DNA of 64,000 nt from Larkinella humicola (lineage in GTDB: Bacteria; Bacteroidota; Bacteroidia; Cytophagales; Spirosomataceae). The notes under the pieces are model-generated. The model saw only the letters and a list, made by a program, of their open reading frames with translations, had not been told where the DNA came from and did not search any database. This document shows positions 24,330 through 36,643 of this stretch, piece after piece. The translations under genes were made by a program, and so were the position numbers. Each line of letters begins with the position of its first letter. Positions within the stretch are counted from its first letter, which is position 1. The DNA lies in the NCBI RefSeq assembly GCF_008727875.1, contig NZ_VTWS01000002.1, positions 682,001-746,000 of the forward strand. Direction: 5' to 3'.

Positions 24330-26108
24330 TTACATTTTTGTAGGCACTTCAATTCCTAATAACTCCATTGTTTTACAGATAGTTTCGACAACGGCTTTCG
24401 ATAAGGCCACCCGAAATTTGAGTTTGTCGGCATCCGGTTCCGACAGGATCGATAACTCCCCGTAAAACTGGTTGTAGGCCTTGGCTAACTCGAAGGCATA
24501 CTGCCCCAGGTACGAGGGAGCGTAGTCGGTTCCGGCTTCGGTAATCCGCTGGTAAAACTGCGTCAACAAATAAACCAGTTGTTGCTCACTATCAGCCAGT
24601 TCTACTGTTTTCAAGGAACCCGCAGGGTCGATTCCCAACTGGGCCGCTTTCCGTAAAACCGAGCAAATCCGGGCGTGGGTATATTGAATAAAAGGTCCGG
24701 TATGTCCCTGGAAATCAATCGACTCTTCCGGGTTAAACGTCATCCTTTTTTTCGGATCCACCTTCAATAAATAATATTTCAACGCCCCCATCGCCAGCAT
24801 GTGATAGAGGTTCGTAGCTTCCTCGCTTTCAAAATCGTCAATTTTACCCAATTCCCGGGTGCGGTTCCTGGCGGTTTCGACCATCTCTTCGATCAGGTCA
24901 TCGGCATCGACCACGGTGCCTTCCCGCGATTTCATCTTGCCACTCGGCAAGTCGACCATGCCGTAGGAAAGGTGGAACAGGCCGTCGGCATACGGGCGGC
25001 CCAGCCGGCGCAGAATCGCAAATAATACCGCAAAGTGGTAGTCCTGCTCATTACCCACTACCCAGATGCCGCGCTGAACCGGATAATCCTGAAATTTCAG
25101 ATCGGTGGTTCCTAAATCCTGCGTGATGTAGACCGAGGTGCCATCCGACCGCAGCACCAGCTTCTGGTCGAGCCCTTCGTCGGCGAGGTCGATCCAGACC
25201 GAGCCATCCGGTTTACGGTAGAAAACATGTTGGCGCAAACCGTCTTCGATGACGTCTTTACCCAGCAGATAGGTCTCCGATTCGTAGTAGGTTTTATCGA
25301 AACTGACGCCAATTTCGTGGTAAGTTTCGGCAAAACCGGCGTAGACCCAGGCATTCATCTGCTTCCAGAGCGCGACGGTTTCGGGGTCACCCTGCTCCCA
25401 CTTCCGCAGCATTTCCTGCACTTTCAGCAGCAGGGGCGTCTTTTTCTCGGCTTCTTCCCGCGGCATTCCCTCCTCAATCAGCTCTTCGATTTGCTGTTTG
25501 TGGGCTTTGTCGAACCAGACGTAGTATTTCCCGATCAGGTGATCGCCCTTCATGCCTGTCGATTCGGGTGTCTCGCCATTGCCAAACTCCTGATAGGCCA
25601 GCATCGACTTGCAGATGTGAATGCCCCGGTCGTTGACCAGACAGGCTTTCACGACTTCGTAGCCGTTGGCTTTCAGAATCCGGCTGACCGAATCGCCCAG
25701 AAAGTTGTTGCGCAGGTGGCCGAGGTGCAGCGGTTTGTTGGTGTTGGGCGACGAAAACTCCACCATCACCGACTCGTTTCGCGACGGCAACTGCCCCCAA
25801 GTCGGATTCGCCAGCATCGCGCTCAACTCTTCGACCCAGACCGAATCGGCAATGGTGAGGTTCAGAAAGCCCTGAACAACATTGAATTGGCTGATGATCG
25901 TCGTGTTTTCTTTCAGGTACGTTCCGATGGCCTGCCCGATTTCCACCGGCGGTTTTCGGGTTGTTTTGGTCAACGGGAAGGTCACGAAGGTATAGAGCCC
26001 TTCAAATTCTTTTTTGGTAGGTTGCAGAATAACGGTTTCAACGGGCACATTGAACAGCGAATTGATCGCTTCGGCAATGGCTAGTTTGAGTTGTGCTTGA
26101 ATGTCCAT
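24330..26108 (-). CDS. argS: Arginyl-tRNA synthetase
   Basis: 592 residues; class I synthetase. The N-terminal additional domain (1-100) recognises the tRNA D-loop. The HIGH signature is H128-L-G-H131 in PNTNKPLHLGHLRNN, and the DALR anticodon-binding domain ends the protein (QFYGELSIL, then KAVVETICKTMELLGIEVPTKM). As in most ArgRS, KMSKS is relaxed (SGKMKSREGT). A -7 box lies at 26132-26139. The peroxidase gene downstream is probably cotranscribed. Confidence 0.97.
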   Translation of the reverse strand: MDIQAQLKLAIAEAINSLFNVPVETVILQPTKKEFEGLYTFVTFPLTKTTRKPPVEIGQAIGTYLKENTTIISQFNVVQGFLNLTIADSVWVEELSAMLANPTWGQLPSRNESVMVEFSSPNTNKPLHLGHLRNNFLGDSVSRILKANGYEVVKACLVNDRGIHICKSMLAYQEFGNGETPESTGMKGDHLIGKYYVWFDKAHKQQIEELIEEGMPREEAEKKTPLLLKVQEMLRKWEQGDPETVALWKQMNAWVYAGFAETYHEIGVSFDKTYYESETYLLGKDVIEDGLRQHVFYRKPDGSVWIDLADEGLDQKLVLRSDGTSVYITQDLGTTDLKFQDYPVQRGIWVVGNEQDYHFAVLFAILRRLGRPYADGLFHLSYGMVDLPSGKMKSREGTVVDADDLIEEMVETARNRTRELGKIDDFESEEATNLYHMLAMGALKYYLLKVDPKKRMTFNPEESIDFQGHTGPFIQYTHARICSVLRKAAQLGIDPAGSLKTVELADSEQQLVYLLTQFYQRITEAGTDYAPSYLGQYAFELAKAYNQFYGELSILSEPDADKLKFRVALSKAVVETICKTMELLGIEVPTKM

Positions 26109-26131
26109 TCGACCAGGTAAGATTCAAAGCA

Positions 26132-26139
26132 CAAAACTA
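26132..26139 (-). promoter_or_regulatory. -7 promoter box of argS
   Basis: Reads TAGTTTTG on the minus strand, an exact TAnnTTTG, 23 bases before the argS ATG. Confidence 0.55.
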
Positions 26140-26194
26140 CGCCAAAAATTAGTTTCCATCCGTGTTGAGGGAAAGGAACTGCATTAAAAACCGC

Positions 26195-26965
26195 TCATAC
26201 GTCCCGGTTCTTCCGTTTGCTGAGCCGGATTGGATAGGAAGCCGTGATCCGAAACGCGGAGCCTCTAGCTGCCATTCGCAGGAAATACGCGGTTTGGTTG
26301 ATGGTATAATCCACGTCGGCGGTTACCAATTTTCTCAGGCCCTGCGAATAAACGAACTGAATATCGAGCCGGTCTTTGTCGTGGCTTTTGAACTGAAAAC
26401 CGATCCCGGCCTGAATCGATGCCCCGTGCCGGTGGAGGACGTTGGGGAGTTTTTCGTCGATTTCGATTGGATCTAATTTGGGGTCTAAAACTTTTATTGA
26501 AAGAATACCCGCCCCATAATTATTAAAACGAAACCAGTCATAGGTTAAACTAGTGGTCGCATACAAATCGAAAATCATGGCATACCGATAATTAGCCTTA
26601 TCAAGTCGTCCTAATCTGACATTTTCTTTTAACAAAAAATCGGCTTTTAGTGGAAATTGAATGATTGGAGCTGCTGTTCTCTGTGCTGCTCGTGTTGTGG
26701 GGGCTTTAACTTTATACCCCCAACCAATATCACTCTCACTAACTCCGGTTGAAATTCTCAACTTAGAGTTAATATCACATTGGACTAACAAACTCCAAAA
26801 ATCGTAATTCCCAAAAGATTTCCGAAGGTGCCCATAACTTGGACGTTGAGTGAAATCTGAAAATAGCGTTTGCAAACCAACAGTTGGCTTCAGATAAACG
26901 TTGGTTTGCGCTGTAGCTCCAGCGACCATAAAGAGGCTAAAACCTAAATACGCTACTAATTTCAT
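26195..26965 (-). CDS. Predicted outer membrane beta-barrel protein, unknown function
   Basis: 256 residues with a signal peptide ending GATAQ and a mature part of alternating beta-strand character, with repeated aromatic-ended strands (DFWSLLVQCDINSKLRISTGVSES, RYAMIFDLYATTSLTYDWFRF). It ends in basic residues and not the usual aromatic, so barrel closure is not certain. I recognise no family. The gene is clearly more AT-rich than its neighbours, which may mark recent acquisition. The frame continues upstream to 27109, but ATG 26965 opens the signal peptide. The upstream segment (LLAIRRLFPEALHELEVRL) has higher GC and a protein-like look, and could be a remnant of another gene. Confidence 0.65.
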   Translation of the reverse strand: MKLVAYLGFSLFMVAGATAQTNVYLKPTVGLQTLFSDFTQRPSYGHLRKSFGNYDFWSLLVQCDINSKLRISTGVSESDIGWGYKVKAPTTRAAQRTAAPIIQFPLKADFLLKENVRLGRLDKANYRYAMIFDLYATTSLTYDWFRFNNYGAGILSIKVLDPKLDPIEIDEKLPNVLHRHGASIQAGIGFQFKSHDKDRLDIQFVYSQGLRKLVTADVDYTINQTAYFLRMAARGSAFRITASYPIRLSKRKNRDV

Positions 26966-27277
26966 AGGTGTTAGTCTTAAAACCATTCCATTCGTACCTT
27001 CCGGCAAGCGCTGGAAAACAAGCCGTACTTCCAATTCATGCAAGGCTTCCGGAAACAACCGCCGGATGGCCAGGAGTTGATCGAACAGCTTTTTTTTCGC
27101 CGAAACCATAACTGAGGAGTTGAAGAGAAGTGTCCCAGATTTGACGGACGGGTGTGCCGTAAGTCACTTTCTGCCTATTTAATAGTACAGAATTGAGAAT
27201 TTCCATTCACGCAAAAACCCGCTGTTTGATTTGACAAAAGGGGCGGAATACGTACCTTTAATCAGTACTTAATCAAA
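26966..27277. other. Intergenic region between divergent genes of unknown function
   Basis: About 310 bases without a convincing gene. Toward the plus-strand gene, TACCTTTA at 27253-27260 is a one-mismatch -7 box, 18 bases before the ATG at 27278. A stretch near 26966-27109 reads as possible degenerate coding sequence on the minus strand. Confidence 0.35.
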
Positions 27278-28891
27278 ATGCTGATGATCAATCGTCTCAC
27301 GAGAGGGCTTTGGTGCTGGATGCTGGTGGCATGTATTCCCGCGATGGCCCAATTTGAGCCTTCCATCCGCCTGGAATTGCCCGTTAGTCAGAATTCGGAA
27401 GAGTTTTTCGACGTGACGACGCTCGGGGATCAGGGCGTTCTGGTGAACGTCCGGCATGGCGATTACTATTCATCGGCCCCCACCAAGTTTTCCTTCAAAC
27501 GCTACGATACCGACCTCAAACTGCTCTGGTCAACGGAGTATAAAATTGATGCGTTCTACGAACCGGTTCGGTCGGCCCGCACGGAACATTACCTCTACTG
27601 GCTGCTGAAAGAAACCGCCAACGAGAAAATTGCCATCCTGCGGATCAACCTCACCGACGGAGCGATGGAAACCTACCGGGGTGATCTGGTGACACCCATG
27701 GATATTTTTCATTTCAAGGTCCTGGACAACATCGCCTACCTCGGCGGCTATTACCGCTCCCGGCCGGTGGTGGTGTCGTTCTCGTTTTTCGATCTGACTT
27801 CCAAAGTGTTACCCGGTTTGTATTCCAACCACATTCAGCTCAACAACATCGAAGTCGATGAGCAACGGCGGCTGGTGCACGTCATGACCGATGCCACGCA
27901 CCAGCGGAACTGCGAGTTTACGGTTCGGACGTATTCGTATGAAGGCAAACTGATCCGGACGGTGAACCTGGACGGCAACAAACACAGTCTGATTTCGGGC
28001 AAACTGCTTCCCCTCAACGACGAGGAATCGCTGCTCGTCGGCAACTATTCCAACGACTGCACGCCCTATTCGCAGGGGGTTTACATCACCCGAATCCGCA
28101 ATGCCGCGTCGCCTTTGGGTGAAAGCACGGTGATTACCCCGACCGAAGACACGCGGTATATCGACTTTTCGGAGCTTCAGAATTTCTTCAACTACATGAA
28201 ACCCAAACGCCAGCAGAAGATGATCGAGCGGCTGGCGCGTCGGAAAGACCAAGGCAAAGACACCAAGTTCCGGTATCGGCTGCTGGTCCACGATCTGGTG
28301 CCGACCGACGAAGGTCTGATGCTGATTGCGGAAGTGTATTACCCCCAATACCGGGGCAGTTCCTATCCGTATCTGGGCGCCGGGCGTTCCTTTGATCGCT
28401 ACCAGGAGGGCTATCGGTATACACACGCGTTTCTGTGCGGTTTCGACAAAAAAGGCAAGCTGCTGTGGGACAACTCCCTGCCCATTCCCGATCTGAGCAG
28501 CTATGATTTGAATCAGATGGTGCAGGTTTCCCGACAGGGCAACACGACCATTCTGGCCTATCCACACGACGGCGAAATCCACGCCGAGGTGATTCAGGGC
28601 GGCAAGGTGGTGCGGGAGCAGGAGAAGTATTCGCTGAAAAAATTACGGGAAAACGAGAAAGTGGTCTATTCCGAAAACGAACAACTGGAAGCCTGGTATG
28701 ACGGCCATTTTCTGGCCTGTGGATTTCAGAAAATTTCGACTGAACGCTCCCTGGCTCCTCCGCGTGAAGTGTTCTATATCAATAAAGTAACCCGCATTCC
28801 CGACGATCCGGACACCCGCCCGTCGAGCCGCTCGGCCAGCCCGGACGATACCAACGCTACCCGAAAAACTTCCGGATCAAAACAAAAATGA
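27278..28891 (+). CDS. Secreted protein of unknown function
   Basis: 537 residues. The N-terminus (CWMLVACIPAMAQ) is a signal peptide with cleavage near residue 25, and the second Met codon at 27284 is an alternative start. The body is made of repeated strand-turn-strand units with a WD- or propeller-like rhythm (VLVNVRHGDYYSS, ILRINLTDGAMETYRGDLV, VYITRIRNAASPLGES), so a periplasmic beta-propeller is my best structural guess. The last 30 residues are Ser/Pro/Asp-rich and disordered. I know no named family. Its 3' end overlaps the convergent DUF2905 gene by 35 bases. Confidence 0.75.
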   Translation: MLMINRLTRGLWCWMLVACIPAMAQFEPSIRLELPVSQNSEEFFDVTTLGDQGVLVNVRHGDYYSSAPTKFSFKRYDTDLKLLWSTEYKIDAFYEPVRSARTEHYLYWLLKETANEKIAILRINLTDGAMETYRGDLVTPMDIFHFKVLDNIAYLGGYYRSRPVVVSFSFFDLTSKVLPGLYSNHIQLNNIEVDEQRRLVHVMTDATHQRNCEFTVRTYSYEGKLIRTVNLDGNKHSLISGKLLPLNDEESLLVGNYSNDCTPYSQGVYITRIRNAASPLGESTVITPTEDTRYIDFSELQNFFNYMKPKRQQKMIERLARRKDQGKDTKFRYRLLVHDLVPTDEGLMLIAEVYYPQYRGSSYPYLGAGRSFDRYQEGYRYTHAFLCGFDKKGKLLWDNSLPIPDLSSYDLNQMVQVSRQGNTTILAYPHDGEIHAEVIQGGKVVREQEKYSLKKLRENEKVVYSENEQLEAWYDGHFLACGFQKISTERSLAPPREVFYINKVTRIPDDPDTRPSSRSASPDDTNATRKTSGSKQK

Positions 28892-29084
28892 GGTTCAGCA
28901 GAACGCTGACGACGATGCAGGTGACAATCGGGAAATAAAAACCGCCGTTTTTACCTTCGATGCGAATGTCGCCCGGCAACCGACCGAGCCAGCCCAGTTT
29001 ATCGCCAAAAAAATAAACGATCAGCCCGATCAGGACCACCACAACCCCAATTCCGATCAGATACTTGCCAATTCCTGCGTTCAT
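28857..29084 (-). CDS. DUF2905 small membrane protein
   Basis: 75 residues with two transmembrane helices (about 6-23 and 50-70). Between them is the family signature GRLPGDIRIEGKNGGFYFPI, which I recognise as DUF2905, an uncharacterised inner-membrane family widespread in bacteria. The frame is open further up to 29186, but ATG 29084 gives the standard short N-terminus. Its end lies inside the 3' end of the convergent upstream neighbour. Confidence 0.85.
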   Translation of the reverse strand: MNAGIGKYLIGIGVVVVLIGLIVYFFGDKLGWLGRLPGDIRIEGKNGGFYFPIVTCIVVSVLLNLIFVLIRKFFG

Positions 29085-29455
29085 ACCAGTACATACGGTC
29101 GCTAACCCGTGAATGAATCGTTTCCTGCAAGTATAGACTACGTTCCTCAGAAAGACAATTTCCTCCCTCGCTAAACTTTTTTTCACTCGTCCGGCATACT
29201 CTGGACGCTCAATTACCAGACTTTGGAATAGATTACCGGTAACTCAAAATAAGGAATGCCAATGGTTTCGAAAACCGGCAAGTTTAGCGGTTTTCGCCAA
29301 ACCGGATACTAAAACCCGATCTCTTTCCAGGAAATTATTGTATTTATTTGCTCCAACAATTGCACTTCCCAAAGTAGACTGGCTAGAACATCAAGGATAG
29401 ACCGGGTTGGCCATCGCCCGATGTATCTACATTCACACCGTTCATCCAGAAAGCC
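29085..29455. other. Intergenic region with a hairpin, between DUF2905 and the AraC-type regulator
   Basis: About 370 bases with no gene. It holds a 9-bp inverted repeat CGAAAACCG/CGGTTTTCG (29269-29277 and 29288-29296, ten-base loop). Both flanking genes point away from it, so the repeat is a candidate operator or RNA hairpin, not a terminator. Confidence 0.4.
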
Positions 29456-29863
29456 ATGAATCCGTTTCAATCCGTTGCTGTCCGAGACCATACCGTGTTG
29501 AAGTTGTGGGGTCAGATCGAGCAAAACATCGACAATCCCGATTTAAGCGTGACGGACCTCCTTGAATCGGCTGCGATGAGCCGCACCAACCTCTACCGTC
29601 GGCTCACTGCCAAAACCGGGATGTCGGCCACGGCCTTTATCCGGTACGTCCGGCTGACGAAAGCGCGCGATCTGCTCCTCGATCAAACGGATCTGACCAT
29701 TTCCGAGATTGCCTTCTCGGTTGGCTTCAACAGCCTGAGCTACTTCACCAAACGGTTTACGGAGGTATTCGGCGTTTGCCCCCGGCGGTACCAGGAGACC
29801 CATGAACTCAAACCGCTTTCGGAACATCCGTTCAAGTTTTTGGAACATGCGTTGAAAGGTTAG
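29456..29863 (+). CDS. AraC-type DNA-binding regulator lacking a sensor domain
   Basis: 135 residues, essentially one AraC/XylS DNA-binding domain. The first helix-turn-helix is about 30-55 (LSVTDLLESAAMSRTNLYRRLTAKTG), the second about 80-110 (LTISEIAFSVGFNSLSYFTKRFTEVFGVCPRRYQ). Full AraC proteins have a further 150-200 residues for ligand binding, and hybrid sensors have a kinase; both are absent. It resembles the isolated C-terminal output domain of Bacteroidota hybrid two-component systems. It is followed at 107 bases by the putative precursor peptide gene and then the radical SAM gene, so it is the likely local regulator of that cassette. Confidence 0.88.
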   Translation: MNPFQSVAVRDHTVLKLWGQIEQNIDNPDLSVTDLLESAAMSRTNLYRRLTAKTGMSATAFIRYVRLTKARDLLLDQTDLTISEIAFSVGFNSLSYFTKRFTEVFGVCPRRYQETHELKPLSEHPFKFLEHALKG

Positions 29864-29902
29864 GAACATCCGTAAAAGCGAAATTCTTCGGGATTAACAA
29901 AC

Positions 29903-29953
29903 TTTACATCGGCCAATAAAACACTATTGGTCAGGTATTTATATCGATGTAAA
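29903..29953. promoter_or_regulatory. Nested inverted repeats upstream of the putative precursor gene
   Basis: An outer perfect 9-bp repeat, TTTACATCG (29903-29911) and CGATGTAAA (29945-29953), encloses an inner perfect 6-bp repeat, CCAATA (29913-29918) and TATTGG (29925-29930). The set ends 16 bases before the ATG at 29970. It may be an operator for the adjacent AraC-type protein or an RNA leader structure. Confidence 0.5.
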
Positions 29954-29969
29954 ACTAAAGCTAAACACC

Positions 29970-30398
29970 ATGGAAAAGAGACCGCTGAAAGAACAGATCG
30001 ACGCGTTGGAAAAACTGGCCAAAGACCCGAAAAGTCAGCAGGAAATCGGGAAAAGGCTGATTCAGGAAGTAGCGAAGGCGATGTATGAAGAACGGAAAGG
30101 GCTCGAAATATCGACCCCCGACGCCGAGATTCCGATTCGGAAAGGCGAGATGGTTCCCCTCGAATTACGGAACCAGATCAAAACCGATGAAACCGGTTTG
30201 GCCCTCCAGGATGCGCTGGTGCAGAACCTCAACCTCCGCATCTGGTTCCGGATCTGGGTTCGTTTCTGGTTCCGGATCATCGTCGACATTCCCCGGTTTG
30301 AAACCAGTCCGCTGAATTCGTTCAAGGATTTTGCTGATTCCATCGGCTTTTCGGACGAAGAGATCAAACTCGTAGACCGGCTCAAAGGCATGTCCTGA
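29970..30398 (+). CDS. Putative RiPP precursor with Trp/Arg tetrad repeats (142 residues)
   Basis: I recognise no family. Residues 1-85 are charged and helical (a leader-like region), with a basic/acidic stretch and LQDALVQ before the repeat. Residues 90-105 are four tandem tetrads: RIWF, RIWV, RFWF, RIIV, followed by DIPRFE. Each of W92, W96 and W100 is followed by X-Arg, the aromatic-X-X spacing at which cyclophane-forming radical SAM enzymes join an aromatic ring to a side-chain carbon. A 32-residue acidic/amphipathic tail (SPLNSFKDFADSIGFSDEEIKLVDRL) follows, so the core would be internal. A terminator-like hairpin and then a radical SAM/SPASM gene lie downstream. Function as a precursor is inference from repeat and context. 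Alternatives are a structural protein or a small membrane-active protein. Confidence 0.7.
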   Translation: MEKRPLKEQIDALEKLAKDPKSQQEIGKRLIQEVAKAMYEERKGLEISTPDAEIPIRKGEMVPLELRNQIKTDETGLALQDALVQNLNLRIWFRIWVRFWFRIIVDIPRFETSPLNSFKDFADSIGFSDEEIKLVDRLKGMS

Positions 30399-30417
30399 AA
30401 CCGCTTGCCATCCCCCG

Positions 30418-30454
30418 CCGAAGAATCCCGACCAAAAGGGGTTCTTCGGTTTTT
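30418..30454 (+). terminator. Intrinsic terminator/attenuator between precursor and radical SAM gene
   Basis: CCGAAGAA (30418-30425) pairs perfectly with TTCTTCGG (30442-30449), with further CCC/GGG pairing inside, and is followed by five T residues. It lies 19 bases after the precursor stop codon. Partial read-through would give much precursor and little maturase, as in many RiPP operons. Confidence 0.8.
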
Positions 30455-30491
30455 CACTCCCTTTCCGAACCGTCCTACAACAACCTCTATC

Positions 30492-31628
30492 ATGGACAAT
30501 TCCCTCAGCCTGATCATCAAATCGACCCGGAAGTGCAACCTGCGCTGCTCTTACTGCCACGACTGGCGGTCGCGCGGAACGGTTATTTCCTTCGAAATTC
30601 TGGCCAACATCGTCGCGAAAGCGTTTCGTGCCCAACGCTACAAGGTCATTAATTTTATCTGGCACGGGGGCGAACCGCTCCTGCTGGGGATCGATTTCTT
30701 TCGCCGGGCGCTCAGCCTGCAGCAGGCTTTTATTCAGGAAGGGCAATACGTCCTCAACAGCGTCCAGATCAACGGTACGCTGCTCACGGAGGAATGGTGT
30801 GACTTTTTCAGGAAAAACCACTTTCAGGTGGGCGTCAGCGTGGATGGCCCCGAAGAAATCCACAACCGAAACCGGTCTTTTGCATCGGGAAAAGGGAGTT
30901 TTCAGCAGGTGATCAAAAGCATCGACCTGCTCAAAGAATACGGGATCGGCCACGGCGTTCTGCTGGTTTTGAACGAAAACACCAAGCGTTTACCGGCTCC
31001 CGAAATTTTTGATTTCATCACCCGGGATCTGAAAGTCGACAACTTCTCGTTCCTGCCCGCCGTTCCCGACAACCTCATCGGCCAGAACTCCGGCGAACGC
31101 GCGACGACTGATTACCTGTCGCTCGAAGACTACGAAGAGTTTATGATCCGGATTTTCGACCATTGGTATGCCCTCGACAACCCCGACATTCGGGTGCGCG
31201 AGATCGACGGCATTGTGCGTTCGGTGATGCGGGGCAATCCACAGGTCTGCACGCTGGCCGGGAATTGCCTCGGCGGTTATTACCACATCGAGCCCGAAGG
31301 CGACGTTTACCACTGCGACAAATACGTCGGTGATCCGATGTATAACCTCGGCAACATTCTGGAATCGGATTTCGATTCGCTGTTTAAATCGCCCCAAATG
31401 CGGGCGTTGCGCCGACAGGAACGGGACAACCTCCAGCGACTATCGGCCTGTCAACACTACGGAATCTGCAACGGCGGCTGCCCGCACGACCGCTACATCG
31501 CTAAAAAATACCGTACGGATTTTACCGGCGAGTGTTGCGGTCAAAACCGGCTGATCTCCCACATCATCCGGGCGTTGGGACAGGACATCGGCGCAGAAAA
31601 AATGGCGGTTTTTGGCCATACGGTTTAG
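30492..31628 (+). CDS. Radical SAM/SPASM peptide-maturase-like enzyme
   Basis: 378 residues. The radical SAM cluster motif CX3CX2C is C15-NLR-C19-SY-C22, followed by HGGEPLL (58-64), the SAM-binding GGEP element. The C-terminal SPASM domain has C253, C259, G270-X4-C275, then C320-X5-C326-X3-C330 and C348, enough ligands for two auxiliary 4Fe-4S clusters as in anSME, although the first Cys of the usual CX2CX5CX3C is missing. Such enzymes mature sulfatases or cross-link ribosomal peptides (cyclophane/triceptide, sactipeptide types). No sulfatase is near, but a repeat peptide gene is 93 bases upstream, which favours peptide modification. ATG 30492 is chosen; upstream codons would run through the terminator. 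The stop abuts that of the convergent gene with no base between. Confidence 0.88.
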   Translation: MDNSLSLIIKSTRKCNLRCSYCHDWRSRGTVISFEILANIVAKAFRAQRYKVINFIWHGGEPLLLGIDFFRRALSLQQAFIQEGQYVLNSVQINGTLLTEEWCDFFRKNHFQVGVSVDGPEEIHNRNRSFASGKGSFQQVIKSIDLLKEYGIGHGVLLVLNENTKRLPAPEIFDFITRDLKVDNFSFLPAVPDNLIGQNSGERATTDYLSLEDYEEFMIRIFDHWYALDNPDIRVREIDGIVRSVMRGNPQVCTLAGNCLGGYYHIEPEGDVYHCDKYVGDPMYNLGNILESDFDSLFKSPQMRALRRQERDNLQRLSACQHYGICNGGCPHDRYIAKKYRTDFTGECCGQNRLISHIIRALGQDIGAEKMAVFGHTV

Positions 31629-33071
31629 CTATTTCTTCAGGCCAAAACCCGCAAACGGCGCTTTCGCATCGTCCAGCACAAGCACCCAGTCCGTGGTTGG
31701 GCCGACAATCGGGGCCTTGAACTCCTGCGGGCCGGTATTCGGAAACACCCCGATTTTCTGGCTCTTTCCATCGCGGGGATTATACCAGTAGGCCAGCACA
31801 TTCGGCGAAGCGGTCAGCCGGGCGAGGTCAATTTTCAGCGGACTGCCGTTGGGCGTGTAGGCAAACAAGAAATTGTCGTCTTCCGAAATGGCCGCCACCT
31901 GGTGATTGCCATCGTCGGGATTGGTGTTCTGAATCAGCCGCTCGTCGGGCATCAGCCGCGTCCACGGATGCGACTCGTACAACCGGCGTAAAATTCCCAT
32001 CTGAAACGCCCCGGCATGGTCGAGCGCCCGTTTCCAGTGCGTACGGGCGGCCGAAACCGGCGGATTTCGATCGTTGTCGAAAAACTGCCAGATGTTGTGG
32101 TTGCCGTAGGTATGTCCGCAACCGCCCGACAAAACCGCCCACCAGGCCGCCTGCCGCACGTCGAAATCGTCAAAATAGCCCTGCTCCGGTTTGTGCGCAA
32201 TTGGATGGTCTTCGTAACGTGGTTCACCATCGAGCGTCGGCTTGGGTGGAAACATCGCGTAGTTCTGCCGTTGCATCACGTAATTCTTCTTGTTCCTGGC
32301 ACTGTGTCCCGACTGAAACAGATTAATGTTCAGCCATTTATCGCTATGAAAAAATCCTGACGAGTTGCTGTCGCCCTGCGGGTGATAGGTCATGAGCTTG
32401 GTGCCGCCGTCGCCTTTCTTGATGCCTTCCGCCATCGCCCGGACAATGGCCAGCCGTTGCTCGCCCTCCGGATTGCGGTCACCGCCCAAAATCCAGATAA
32501 CCGGTTTGCCCCGGTAGCGTTTGCCAATAAACTCACCATACGTCCGGGCATTGGCAGTATTGAAAATTTCGGGGCCTTTTCCCCACTTCTTATTGAATTT
32601 ATCTCCCCAGGTCGGCAGCAGCCCAACGACCAGCCCCAGCTCCGTGGCCCGGTTGACCACCCAGTCGACATGCTGGAAATACGCTTCATTCGGTTTGGTG
32701 GGGTCGTTGCCCACCAGTGGCAATTGACCGTACTGATTGGGTTGCGTCAGCCCGTCGAGTTCGGCCAGCACCACCGCCTGAATCACGGTAAACCCTTTGG
32801 CCGCCCGGTTTTTCAAATACAGATCGGCTTCTTCCTTCGTCAGCCGGTGGAACAATTCCCAGGCCGTGTCACCCAGCCAGAAAAACGGTTTCCCATCCCC
32901 CCGCATGATGTACCGTTTGTCGGGAATGATGTAGAGTTTGGACAAGGCAACGGTTTCCTTTGAGGCCGCAGCGGGTTTCTGAGCGTAGCCCAGAGCGGAC
33001 AGGAACAAATAGACTATCCCCAAAACGATCGCTCGTTTTGTCCAGATACCGGAAAAGTTTGAACGATTCAT
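31629..33071 (-). CDS. Secreted DUF4038 apiosidase-like glycoside hydrolase
   Basis: 480 residues with a signal peptide ending LGYAQ. The catalytic TIM barrel is of the DUF4038 (apiosidase-like, GH140-related) type: GKPFFWLGDTAWELFHRLTKEEADLYLKNRAAKGFTVIQ, then VIWILGGDRNPEG and later SGGCGHTYGNHNIWQF. The last 90 residues match the collagen-binding-like beta domain often fused to it. The family removes apiose or related sugars from plant pectin side chains; the true substrate here is not known. The frame is open to 33188 but that part is the palindromic repeat; ATG 33071 opens the signal peptide. It stands alone, convergent with the radical SAM gene. Confidence 0.85.
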   Translation of the reverse strand: MNRSNFSGIWTKRAIVLGIVYLFLSALGYAQKPAAASKETVALSKLYIIPDKRYIMRGDGKPFFWLGDTAWELFHRLTKEEADLYLKNRAAKGFTVIQAVVLAELDGLTQPNQYGQLPLVGNDPTKPNEAYFQHVDWVVNRATELGLVVGLLPTWGDKFNKKWGKGPEIFNTANARTYGEFIGKRYRGKPVIWILGGDRNPEGEQRLAIVRAMAEGIKKGDGGTKLMTYHPQGDSNSSGFFHSDKWLNINLFQSGHSARNKKNYVMQRQNYAMFPPKPTLDGEPRYEDHPIAHKPEQGYFDDFDVRQAAWWAVLSGGCGHTYGNHNIWQFFDNDRNPPVSAARTHWKRALDHAGAFQMGILRRLYESHPWTRLMPDERLIQNTNPDDGNHQVAAISEDDNFLFAYTPNGSPLKIDLARLTASPNVLAYWYNPRDGKSQKIGVFPNTGPQEFKAPIVGPTTDWVLVLDDAKAPFAGFGLKK

Positions 33072-33084
33072 TCTTTGTATGATA

Positions 33085-33161
33085 ACCCCTGAACCCCCTG
33101 AAGGGGACTTTTTGCATCCGAAGGAATTCGCGTCAAAGTCCCCTTCAGGGGATTTAGGGGC
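33085..33161. repeat. Palindromic intergenic repeat, CCCCTGAAGGGG family (copy 4)
   Basis: Arms 33085-33111 and 33135-33161; the inner CCCCTGAAGGGGACTTT pairs perfectly with AAAGTCCCCTTCAGGGG, and the outer ends pair with a few mismatches. It lies directly upstream of the DUF4038 gene start. Confidence 0.8.
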
Positions 33162-33279
33162 AGTAAGCGAAACGACTGCTAAATTCATGGGTCAGGAATA
33201 AGGGGCTGTAAAAACCGACATTTGAATGAAATCTAAGACGGTTTGCTTATAATTCAAACACCTTTCCAAAAACTTGCCG

Positions 33280-33287
33280 TACTTTTG
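33280..33287 (+). promoter_or_regulatory. -7 promoter box of the Sua5-like/cca operon
   Basis: TACTTTTG fits TAnnTTTG, 15 bases before the ATG at 33303, so the transcript leader would be very short. Confidence 0.5.
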
Positions 33288-33302
33288 CGGCTTGTTACAA
33301 CT

Positions 33303-33821
33303 ATGACACCAACGCCACGCGATATTGTTGCCGAACTCCGGCAGGGACGACTCATCCGGCTGGCCGACGAAACCGGCGTTTCACTGGCCTGCGATCCCGG
33401 CCATGCGGAAGCCGTCGAACATCTGCTGGATGTCCGGAAAGACCTGGTTCCGGCCCCCCTCCCCACCATTCTCATTTCCGACAGTGGTCAGCTCAACCTC
33501 TATGTCCGGCCTGTGCCGGATGTGGCCTGGGATCTGATCGAGTTCGCCGAAATGCCCCTGACGGTTTTAATGTACAACGGCATCAACCTGCCCGACGCCT
33601 TCCGGTTGCAGGTGCCGCTGCGGAAAACCCTTAGCGAATCGGTGCGACAACTCATCGGCGCGTTTGGCCGGGGGCTGTTGACCCTGCCGTTTGAAGACGC
33701 CGAATGGCCGGTCGGTCTGGCAAAACCGCCCGTTTCCTGGGGCGAACTGCCCGCCAAAATTCAATTGCCGCGTATTATGGAGTTAGGTCCAAAAGGGGAA
33801 GTAGCCTTTTTACGAAAATAA
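33303..33821 (+). CDS. Diverged Sua5/YciO/YrdC-family protein
   Basis: 172 residues. The pattern ELRQGRLIRLADETGVSLACDPGHAEAVEHLLDVRK corresponds to the N-terminal fold of threonylcarbamoyl-AMP synthases. The nucleotide-binding signatures are lost: the PTDTVYGL segment is changed to LADETGVSL, the KxR motif is RKDL, and the late STSAN-type loop reads PVSWGEL. It is therefore probably not an active TsaC/Sua5, and may be a paralogue with another role. ATG 33303 follows a -7 box. Its TAA stop is followed at once by an ATG (TAATG at 33819-33823) leading into cca, suggesting one transcript; both would concern tRNA if any old role is kept. Confidence 0.75.
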   Translation: MTPTPRDIVAELRQGRLIRLADETGVSLACDPGHAEAVEHLLDVRKDLVPAPLPTILISDSGQLNLYVRPVPDVAWDLIEFAEMPLTVLMYNGINLPDAFRLQVPLRKTLSESVRQLIGAFGRGLLTLPFEDAEWPVGLAKPPVSWGELPAKIQLPRIMELGPKGEVAFLRK

Positions 33822-33877
33822 TGAGCCGTACCGCCACTGCCGACCAGGATCGGAACGATTCGTTATTCCTGTGTTCT

Positions 33878-35410
33878 ATGAACTTTACGGAGACCCTACA
33901 TAGCAATCCCATTTTTGAAGTCATCGCCCGTCAGGCGGCTGCGCTGGACGTTCGTGCGTATGTCATCGGCGGTTTTGTACGGGATCTGATTCTGAAACGT
34001 CCGTCGAAAGACATCGACATTGTGTGCATTGGCAGTGGCATCGACCTGGCCGAAGCCGTGGGCCGGGAGTTGAAAGTGCCCGTGATTGTGTTTAAGAATT
34101 TCGGAACGGCCATGTTACCGGCTCATCCCGATCAAACTACGTATACCGAGGCAACCGAAACCGTTCCAGGCAGTCGTTCGCTGGGCTGGGAAGTGGAGTT
34201 TGTGGGCGCCCGCAAAGAATCCTACCGCTCCGATTCGCGAAAACCGCTGGTTGAAAACGGCACCCTCGAAGACGACCAGAACCGCCGGGATTTTACCATC
34301 AACGCGATGGGCATTAGCCTGAACGGGAGCGATTTCGGCCAGTTGCTCGACCCGTTTGGCGGTCTGGACGATTTGCGCCGGAAAACCATTCGCACCCCGC
34401 TCGAACCAAAAATTACGTTTTCCGACGACCCGCTGCGCATGATGCGGGCCATCCGGTTTGCGTCGCAACTGGGTTTCGACATCGAGCCGGACACGTTCGA
34501 TGCGATTATTGAAATGAAAGACCGGCTGGCGATTGTTTCGCGGGAACGGATTACGGACGAACTGAACAAGATTATTCTGTCGTCCAAGCCGTCATACGGT
34601 TTTAAACTGCTGTATCACGCCGGTTTGCTGGATCTTATTTTTCCGGAACTACTGGCGTTGAAAGGCGTTGAAACCATTGAAGGAAAGGGCCACAAGGACA
34701 ATTTTTACCACACGCTGCAAGTGCTGGACAACGTAGCCGAACGCTCCGACGACCTCTGGCTGCGGTGGGCGGCTTTGCTCCACGACATTGCCAAACCGGC
34801 TACCAAACGCTTCGATCCGAAAGTGGGCTGGACGTTCCACGGCCACGAGGATCTGGGAGCCAAACAGGTTCCGGGCATTTTTCGCCAGATGAAATTGCCG
34901 CTGAACGAAAAAATGCGGTTTGTTAAAAAACTCGTTCGGTTGCACCTGCGGCCCATTGCCCTGGTGAAAGAACAGATTACCGACTCGGCACTCCGGCGGC
35001 TGCTGATCGAAGCGGGCGACGACCTGGAAGCGCTGATGAACCTCTGCCGGGCCGATATTACGTCGAAAAACTACGACCGCGTCAAGAAACACCTTGCTAA
35101 TTTCGATAAGGTGGAGCGCAAACTCCGCGAGCTGGACGAACGGGATAAACTGCGTAATTTTCAGCCGGTTATTACGGGAGAACTCATCATGGAAGCCTTT
35201 GGTCTGAAACCGTCGAAAGAAGTCGGACTGATCAAAGTGGCCATTCGGGAAGCTATTCTGGAGGGAACCGTCGTCAACACGCTGGAAGCCGCGATTCCTT
35301 TTATGATCGAAGAGGGCCGGAAAATGGGTCTGGAACCCGTCAAAGAGTTATCAATGCGGGCAGACCATTCCACAACCGCTGATTCCACTTCACCAGAAAG
35401 CCCGCAATAG
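33878..35410 (+). CDS. cca: CCA tRNA nucleotidyltransferase with HD domain
   Basis: 510 residues. The class II nucleotidyltransferase head shows G31-G-F-V-R-D36 and metal ligands D45 and D47 in KDIDIV, followed by DDQNRRDFTINAMGISL (NTP selection) and RMMRAIRFASQLGF. An HD-type phosphohydrolase domain follows (WAALLHDIAKPATK, and VRLHLRP). It adds or repairs the 3' CCA end of tRNAs in the cytoplasm. An earlier in-frame ATG at 33821 overlaps the stop of the Sua5-like gene, but MNFTETLHSNPIF is the usual N-terminus, so I take 33878. A small disordered tail (STTADSTSPESPQ) ends it. Confidence 0.93.
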   Translation: MNFTETLHSNPIFEVIARQAAALDVRAYVIGGFVRDLILKRPSKDIDIVCIGSGIDLAEAVGRELKVPVIVFKNFGTAMLPAHPDQTTYTEATETVPGSRSLGWEVEFVGARKESYRSDSRKPLVENGTLEDDQNRRDFTINAMGISLNGSDFGQLLDPFGGLDDLRRKTIRTPLEPKITFSDDPLRMMRAIRFASQLGFDIEPDTFDAIIEMKDRLAIVSRERITDELNKIILSSKPSYGFKLLYHAGLLDLIFPELLALKGVETIEGKGHKDNFYHTLQVLDNVAERSDDLWLRWAALLHDIAKPATKRFDPKVGWTFHGHEDLGAKQVPGIFRQMKLPLNEKMRFVKKLVRLHLRPIALVKEQITDSALRRLLIEAGDDLEALMNLCRADITSKNYDRVKKHLANFDKVERKLRELDERDKLRNFQPVITGELIMEAFGLKPSKEVGLIKVAIREAILEGTVVNTLEAAIPFMIEEGRKMGLEPVKELSMRADHSTTADSTSPESPQ

Positions 35411-35446
35411 ATTCGACACGAAACCACCACAAACACACAAACTACT

Positions 35447-35650
35447 ATGGATAAGAACAACTTCCGGCGCTTTTTCGGCGCCACACTGACCATTCTGGGC
35501 ATCATCGTCGTCTTGTTTGCCTGTGTAGCTTTCCTGTCGGATGCCAAACCGGTGTTGGGCATGAGCATCACGAAATGGGAATCCCTGGCGCCTTTCATTG
35601 TCGGTCTGGTGTTCTTGGGTTCGGGCGTTAGTCTCATCAATAATTCGTAG
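35447..35650 (+). CDS. Small two-helix membrane protein, unknown function
   Basis: 67 residues: a basic N-terminus (MDKNNFRRFFG), a transmembrane helix (about 11-31), a polar loop and a second helix (about 47-63). There is no known motif. It starts 36 bases after cca and may be cotranscribed with it. Codon use and the clean ATG support a real gene, but no role can be given. Confidence 0.7.
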   Translation: MDKNNFRRFFGATLTILGIIVVLFACVAFLSDAKPVLGMSITKWESLAPFIVGLVFLGSGVSLINNS

Positions 35651-35821
35651 CAGTTGATTGATCCGCTGTTCCGGTTCTACGAGGAACCCCATCCGCGAAA
35701 CGGGGTAATTCATCCACAGCACTCACCTATTAACTTTCTATTTTTCAGGCGATTAATTACTGGTATAGCATTTGAGCATAGGATGGAAACTCAATGTTAA
35801 ACCTGTTAATCAATTACCTGT

Positions 35822-36643
35822 ATGGCTTCTTTCACGGAACAGTTAGCGAATTTTTTTGGCACGAGGGACACGGACACATCACTGCGTGAATTATTCATCA
35901 GCGAGTTGAAAGGCATCTATTATGCCGAAAAACAAATTGCTGATGCGCTGCCAAACATGGCCGAAGCGGCTACCACCGATGTAGTACGCGACGGTTTTCA
36001 CCAGCACCTGGCTGAAACAGAGAATCAAATCCGCCGGATCGAGCAAATCTTCCAGCAACTGGGGGTTGATGCCGACGAGAAAAGTTGCAATGCCATCGAC
36101 GGCCTGATCGACGACGGCGACGTGGTTATTTCCGACACGGATTCCGGTTCATTGACCCGCGATGCCGGTTTGATCATTGCCGGTCAAAAAGTTGAACACC
36201 ACGAAATTGCCGCTTACGGCTCACTTCATTCGCTGGCCCGGTTGCTGGGGTATCACGATGCCGCTCAACTCCTGGGTGAAAGTCTGGAGGAGGAAAAAAA
36301 TACAGACCGGAAACTGACTGAAATTGCGGAATCGTTCATCAATGAACGCGCCAAAATGGAGTCCGACAACGACGACGACACCGACCGGGATGGCATTCGC
36401 GACCGGATGCGGGACACGGTTCGCGATGGCGACTACGGCCAGACTACCGGCACGTATGCAGGTGGCAGCAGCTATTCCGGCGTGACCGGCAGCGGCACCG
36501 AAGAGAATGCGGATGCGGCAACCTGGCAGCGGGATCAGGAAAACCGCACCTGGAAATCAGATGATGACACCCGATCCAATTCAGGCAACACGAACTACCG
36601 GCGCGATACCGATCCGTTGACCGGCGGCCCGAGCGGTTTTTAA
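35822..36643 (+). CDS. DUF892 (YciE/YciF) ferritin-like stress protein
   Basis: 273 residues. Residues about 18-175 form the DUF892 four-helix bundle (LRELFISELKGIYYAEKQIADALPNM, AGQKVEHHEIAAYGSL, LLGESLEEEKNTDRKL), whose Glu and His residues (E in ELKGIYYAE, H in EHHE, E in EEEK) can bind a di-metal site. The family is induced by stress and osmotic shock in other bacteria. After residue 180 there is a 90-residue low-complexity tail rich in Asp, Arg, Ser, Gly and Thr, not found in short family members and predicted to be disordered. The tail resembles that of stress proteins which stay soluble on drying; that reading is inference. Confidence 0.88.
   Translation: MASFTEQLANFFGTRDTDTSLRELFISELKGIYYAEKQIADALPNMAEAATTDVVRDGFHQHLAETENQIRRIEQIFQQLGVDADEKSCNAIDGLIDDGDVVISDTDSGSLTRDAGLIIAGQKVEHHEIAAYGSLHSLARLLGYHDAAQLLGESLEEEKNTDRKLTEIAESFINERAKMESDNDDDTDRDGIRDRMRDTVRDGDYGQTTGTYAGGSSYSGVTGSGTEENADAATWQRDQENRTWKSDDDTRSNSGNTNYRRDTDPLTGGPSGF

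Follow-up and report, generated by a model that had tools for sequence, protein, structure and literature searches.

In the genome of Larkinella humicola we found a set of three genes that probably constitute a minimal operon for a ribosomally synthesized and post-translationally modified peptide (RiPP). The set lies on contig NZ_VTWS01000002.1 (assembly GCF_008727875.1) within a stretch of 64,000 nucleotides, here called the window, to which all coordinates refer. On the plus strand it encodes an AraC-type regulator of 135 amino acids (aa) (29456..29863), a protein of 142 aa (P0001, 29970..30398) and a radical S-adenosylmethionine (SAM)/SPASM enzyme of 378 aa with an ATG start (P0002, 30492..31628). 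An initial annotation, made from the sequence alone, had proposed these genes as a RiPP cassette with P0001 as precursor. Its gene coordinates, the four tetrads it described in P0001 and its numbering of the tryptophans W92, W96 and W100 were all recovered here, and its RiPP reading was supported; it had missed the likeness of the enzyme to the peptide maturase DarE and a likely operator upstream of the precursor gene. We propose, with a probability of roughly 0.66, that the DarE-like P0002 makes up to three W-x-R cyclophanes in the middle of P0001.

P0001 had been described as a protein of no known family, and the searches agreed with this. Pfam assigned no family, NCBIfam and the solved structures each returned a single match at chance level (12.3 bits with a cut-off of 110, and E 0.3, respectively), and in PHROGs no match to P0001, or to two small Cupriavidus proteins described below (P0008 and P0005), was better than E 0.05. 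Residues 90-105 (30237..30284) read R90-I-W-F-R-I-W-V-R-F-W-F-R-I-I-V105, i.e. the tetrads RIWF, RIWV, RFWF and RIIV, and would lie in a core of about residues 89-105 between a leader (about 1-88) and a follower (about 106-142). All three tryptophans of the protein stand in a W-x-R motif (W92-x-R94, W96-x-R98 and W100-x-R102, the proposed crosslink sites). This was equalled by 32 of 100000 composition-preserving shuffles, and of the 261 tryptophans in the window's long open reading frames (ORFs) 15 stand in this motif. The copy in Larkinella punicea, 98% identical, differs by 22 nucleotides distributed 5/0/17 over codon positions 1/2/3. All three genes are under purifying selection in this comparison, with ratios of nonsynonymous to synonymous substitution rates (dN/dS) of 0.012 for the regulator, 0.038 for P0001 and 0.043 for P0002. 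A chance origin of the repeat was set aside on the grounds of the shuffles, the tryptophan background and this selection. Conservation of the repeat, which the initial annotation had marked for checking, was found in that no residue changed between the two species, although this says little because the two copies are nearly identical. At the DNA level the repeat contains a 12-bp tandem array (30235-30278, 3.7 copies, 71% matches), which suggests that it probably grew through short duplications and later drifted. A DNA pattern for three consecutive W-x-R, which ignored reading frames, matched 164 of the 390 genomes of the order and its reversed control also matched many; nothing was concluded from it.

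P0002 contains the domains Radical_SAM (4.5e-21) and SPASM (1.8e-9) according to Pfam. The cysteines that had been described for it were found, with one correction: the CX3CX2C motif of the radical SAM cluster is present (C15, C19 and C22; 30534..30557), and the SPASM region (31248..31538) carries C253, C259, C275, C320, C326, C330, C348 and C349, which falls short of the complete set seen in sulfatase maturases. Their signature CxxCx5Cx3C reads LSACx5Cx3C in P0002, the first cysteine being lost; position 317 is Leu where the solved anaerobic sulfatase-maturating enzyme has Cys. Absence of the CxxC pair together with a CCG motif characterized four of four sequences, namely P0002, its L. punicea counterpart, an enzyme from Cupriavidus and a single DarE, on which this signature rests on the DarE side, whereas all 16 other homologues that were read had CxxC and no CCG. 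The same four sequences formed a clade with support 100/98 in a tree of 20 rows, so that, on the question of enzyme clade raised in the initial annotation, P0002 grouped with a peptide maturase rather than with sulfatase maturases. When two long rows were removed, the DarE-containing clade had a support of 100 in a quick tree (Shimodaira-Hasegawa-like approximate likelihood ratio test, SH-aLRT, alone). About two [4Fe-4S] clusters are present in purified DarE (PMC9055067), which fits the loss of a SPASM ligand that it shares with P0002. By clade and SPASM cysteine set, P0002 is most likely a DarE-like peptide maturase.

Profile scores were less specific. Among the best 25 of the 73 NCBIfam families, P0002 reached no cut-off: it scored 299 bits with DarW (cut-off 650), 284.1 with sulfatase_rSAM (TIGR03942, 349.45), 266.1 with DarE (650) and 243.9 with DynA (450), followed by two further sulfatase-maturase models (210 and 199 bits) and then by cyclophane families from 163 bits downward. 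The models for three-residue cyclophanes all stayed under their cut-offs, with 87.5 of 450 bits for XyeB, 162.8 of 310 for GrrM/OscB, 123.8 of 370 for FxsB and 150.4 of 445 for YhhB, and likewise for AmcB.

The short AraC-type regulator had also been recognised in the initial annotation. It consists of a helix-turn-helix domain (HTH_18, E 4.6e-24), and Pfam found no sensor domain in it. Three direct repeats of GGAACATNCGT, starting at 29821, 29842 and 29863 at an exact spacing of 21 bp (29821..29873), span the end of its gene and beyond, the last one stopping 96 bp before P0001. An exact pair of GGAACATNCGT occurred in the L. humicola genome only here and in L. punicea only at the matching place; two more pairs with two mismatches were found elsewhere in the L. 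humicola genome. AraC-type proteins usually bind direct half-sites spaced by two helical turns, and the three repeats are a probable operator of the regulator. None of 56 bases in this region differed between the two species, which is weak on its own given the approximately 5% of differences usual hereabouts. A single GAACATC at 29386, 5' of the regulator gene, is similar to the unit of these repeats and might serve in autoregulation. A scan for sigma-70-type promoters on the plus strand of 29100-31800 detected no promoter-like site of this type.

Corresponding to the terminator that had been noted, the gap between the precursor and enzyme genes contains a terminator-like hairpin of 13 pairs with a T tail (30417..30450, plus strand; -23.3 kcal/mol, with 0 of 200 shuffles as good). 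In L. punicea three stem bases are changed without the loss of any of the 13 pairs; its hairpin (-20.8 kcal/mol, 4 of 200 shuffles as good) has a shorter T tail. The call rests on the strength of the stem, because the complete scan yielded 5 sites of this type where 3.9 would be expected by chance. Such hairpins often hold the level of a precursor above that of its enzyme, and this one probably sets the ratio of P0001 to P0002.

An 8.1-kb part of the window served as query for comparing the site among nine Larkinella genomes. Left and right flanks were present in all nine, and the three-gene stretch, including the regulator, was present in two (L. humicola and L. punicea) and missing from seven; these seven sites were also fetched and compared directly with the same result. 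Spacing between the flank matches was 66 bp in G001 and G004, 175 in G005, 250 in G003, 1059 in G007, 1161 in G008 and 6898 in G002. The site of G002 holds several other genes, and those of G007 and G008 hold an ORF that by eye resembles a 321-aa PD40-repeat protein just left of the unit in L. punicea. The three genes are thus a real unit under selection, jointly present or absent at a site of varying content, and the regulator belongs to it. As to whether homologues of P0001 have a radical SAM neighbour, a check put forward in the initial annotation, the sole homologue found was the L. punicea copy (NZ_QOWE01000005.1), where the enzyme adjoins as in L. humicola.

Overlapping genome samples were searched for the enzyme: 222 genomes of the family, 390 of the order and 395 of the class at E <= 1e-60, and 395 of the phylum at E <= 1e-55. 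Besides the two Larkinella species this yielded four matches (L008, L009, L014 and L015), all carrying the full CxxC of sulfatase maturases. Viral contigs gave no match for P0001, the Cupriavidus enzyme, DarE or an alignment of P0002 with its L. punicea and Cupriavidus relatives (A2), and phage records gave 15 matches at 26.8-34.4% identity. Within the open-access full text, which excludes subscription papers and bioRxiv, no listed paper treated this cassette, judged by title or abstract, and none contained both Larkinella and radical SAM; a printed account may exist elsewhere.

The closest enzyme found outside Larkinella was encoded on plasmid p1 of Cupriavidus sp. KK10 (L006), with 41.5% identity to P0002, the same SPASM signature and NCBIfam scores of 318 bits for DarW, 270 for DarE and 235 for sulfatase_rSAM. 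Just upstream of it are two small ORFs, P0008 (110 aa, with WVR and WEK) and P0005 (78 aa, with WSR), in which three of four tryptophans stand in W-x-[KR]; 494 of 100000 shuffles were as good, for ORFs that had been picked after being seen. This motif is treated as an after-the-fact lead. The tetrad repeat is absent from the Cupriavidus ORFs read, and a glycosyltransferase gene follows the enzyme. The small ORFs, the enzyme gene and the glycosyltransferase gene are co-directional (L006:4671-8388) and form a possible RiPP operon that is unannotated in the gene table. On a 9.4-kb plasmid of Cetobacterium somerae, a divergent sulfatase-maturase-like radical SAM gene overlaps a gene for a major facilitator superfamily (MFS) transporter (L049:1459-3883).

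The daropeptides and the triceptides are among the closest systems described before. Besides clade and SPASM cysteines, the likeness to daropeptides includes the type of link: DarE joins Trp to Lys, and also Trp to Arg through a C-C bond in WNWSRSF of the Yersinia intermedia DarA (PMC9055067). P0001 has neither a WNWxKxF nor a WT(F/Y)RF core and never an aromatic residue two positions after Trp, which is Arg in each of three repeated W-x-R. It has 142 aa with its presumed core in mid-protein, whereas DarA has 58 aa (PMC9055067), and its host belongs to the Bacteroidota. The transporter DarBCD was not recognised by Pfam among nine ORFs flanking the unit (24330 to 36643; three of them without family); it is not strictly required, as one daropeptide cluster lacks it (PMC9055067). 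P0002 also lacks the N-terminal extension of DarE and remains far below the DarE cut-off. With triceptides (XncB, OscB, MscB, YhhB) P0001 shares the i, i+2 motif, an aromatic residue followed at +2 by Arg, Asn, Asp, Ser or certain others, which it has three times as W-x-R, and XncB links Trp C6 to Arg C-beta from i to i+2 (PMC11002830), but P0002 falls outside the XyeB, GrrM/OscB, FxsB and YhhB families. Dynobactin (DynA in NCBIfam, DynE in a review) is likewise the product of a DarE-like radical SAM enzyme that modifies a precursor peptide; its links, Trp-Asn (i, i+3) and Tyr-His (i, i+2), involve different residues (PMC11002830), and P0002 stays well under the DynA cut-off. Because a defining test fails for each, the cassette was assigned neither to the daropeptides nor to the triceptides, although it probably functions like both.

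Along most of its length P0002 is related to the anaerobic sulfatase-maturating enzyme (4K36-4K39), its closest solved structure by sequence (1.9e-48). P0002 could accordingly be read as an anaerobic sulfatase maturase that installs formylglycine on sulfatases encoded elsewhere, with P0001 as an unrelated small protein. The genome of L. humicola encodes 23 sulfatases (E <= 1e-40), and P0002 is its only match to the sulfatase_rSAM model at E <= 1e-20, with 284 bits. This score lies below the cut-off, P0002 lacks the CxxC pair and groups with DarE as shown above, and Pfam recognised no sulfatase among the nine flanking ORFs. All nine Larkinella genomes encode sulfatases, 11-23 per genome and 176 in total (E <= 1e-40); the enzyme is missing from seven of these genomes, where the sulfatases must therefore manage without it; in L. 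humicola and L. punicea it might still act on one. Other than in P0002 and its L. punicea copy, the maturase model matched twice in Larkinella at E <= 1e-20, with 83.5 and 81.1 bits. Of the 176 sulfatase matches, 30 loci were read and all 30 were of the Cys type. Such sulfatases can be matured by the oxygen-dependent formylglycine-generating enzyme (no search for such an enzyme was made here), and some anaerobic maturases also accept them. We consider it unlikely that P0002 matures sulfatases.

If P0002 is a peptide maturase, it might still modify P0001 in another way, by an ether or a hydroxylation as DarE can, with fewer rings, or with links from Phe. DarE makes both ether and C-C links in the available text (PMC9055067), and the repeat of P0001 holds further aromatic residues (F93, F99 and F101). 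The daropeptide ether printed there runs from Trp to an aromatic residue at +2, a position taken by Arg for all three tryptophans of P0001. An ether-type daropeptide core was ruled out by the lack of any Trp-x-aromatic step, and we hold this group of alternatives to be fairly unlikely as a whole. P0001 might also be a small protein that stays unmodified, such as a regulator or an amphipathic membrane binder, with P0002 acting on another target. The alternation of R/W with I/F/V is that of an amphipathic strand, and no second homologue family ties P0001 to radical SAM enzymes. Yet neither P0001 nor the enzyme was found without the other, all tryptophans of P0001 have crosslinkable spacing, and DarE, the nearest relative with a published function, has as its substrate a peptide encoded in its own cluster, all of which makes an unmodified P0001 decidedly unlikely.

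Several points nevertheless weigh against three W-x-R cyclophanes made by P0002. Support comes from two near-identical Larkinella copies and one distant enzyme relative, and the crosslinks are predicted. P0001 occurred in 2 of 59 genomes, that of the window included, and at one locus in the collection of genome contigs, and in no viral contig or plasmid; as a precursor it would be long, with its core in mid-protein. The sulfatase_rSAM model outscores DarE and DynA and is nearest to its own cut-off, with two more sulfatase models ahead of the cyclophane ones, and the missing N-terminal extension sets P0002 apart from DarE. The tree is small, its one DarE forms a long branch, and the Cetobacterium protein beside the clade gave a long-branch warning; within the clade the Cupriavidus enzyme pairs with DarE (93/76) and not with that of Larkinella. 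In Cupriavidus, adding the upstream ORF P0006, whose two tryptophans are in neither W-x-K nor W-x-R, reduces the motif to 3 of 6 tryptophans versus 30 of 261 tryptophans in the window's long ORFs; an 80-aa ORF has no Trp, and the likeness of P0001 to P0008 is weak and not significant (16.5 bits, E 0.099 in a single comparison). Predicted structures of P0001 and P0002 were too poor for use (predicted local distance difference test, pLDDT, 47.7 and 40.5). Finally, Pfam recognised no transporter, protease or peptidase, or immunity gene among the nine flanking ORFs.

Should the three-cyclophane interpretation hold, the AraC-type protein would bind the three 21-bp repeats and switch on the precursor gene. 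Many transcripts would end at the hairpin, leaving P0001 in excess over P0002, its proposed catalyst. P0002 would then link W92, W96 and W100, each through its indole, to the C-beta of the Arg at +2. This would create as many as three small strained rings in series, each at the expense of two hydrogens. Daropeptide leader and follower are taken off by Escherichia coli proteins in the available account (PMC9055067); in Larkinella, proteases of the cell would trim leader and follower to a stiff cationic Trp/Arg rod of about 15-18 residues, which would be exported.

The absence of an adjacent transporter, protease or sulfatase had been claimed in the initial annotation and agreed with the Pfam results for the flanking ORFs. 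The six with a family were assigned to arginyl-tRNA synthetase, DUF2905, an apiosidase-like hydrolase, a Sua5/YciO-type protein, a polyA-polymerase/tRNA-nucleotidyltransferase-like protein and DUF892. The apiosidase-like glycoside hydrolase, with a putative collagen-binding domain, adjoins the cassette on the minus strand (31629-33188), and its DNA was matched in all nine Larkinella genomes. A dispersed repeat of about 87 bp (33086-33172) lies in the N-terminal part of this ORF, which therefore probably starts further downstream. The 8.1-kb query as a whole had 60 matches in L. humicola, 74 in L. punicea and 59 in G003, and most of those listed fell on this repeat; each of the remaining six genomes had 4-9 matches to the query in total.

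More tentative, with the odds somewhat against it, is the wider proposal of a new RiPP family in at least two phyla (Bacteroidota and Pseudomonadota), whose DarE-like enzymes would recognise a W-x-[K/R] code. In Larkinella, the peptide would carry three Trp-Arg cyclophanes at a four-residue period in a rigid, cationic, beta-strand-like rod, controlled by a sensorless AraC-type switch on an operator of three iterons. The core system comprises two genes and is thus directly testable. If the proposal is true, the regular repeated W-x-R substrate would be a simple test bed for how DarE-like enzymes choose and place their links, and might provide a route to building cyclophane ladders. Darobactin blocks BamA, an outer-membrane protein of Gram-negative bacteria (available text of PMC11002830), and by analogy the Larkinella product may plug an outer-membrane target in competing bacteria, be it a barrel-assembly protein or another one.

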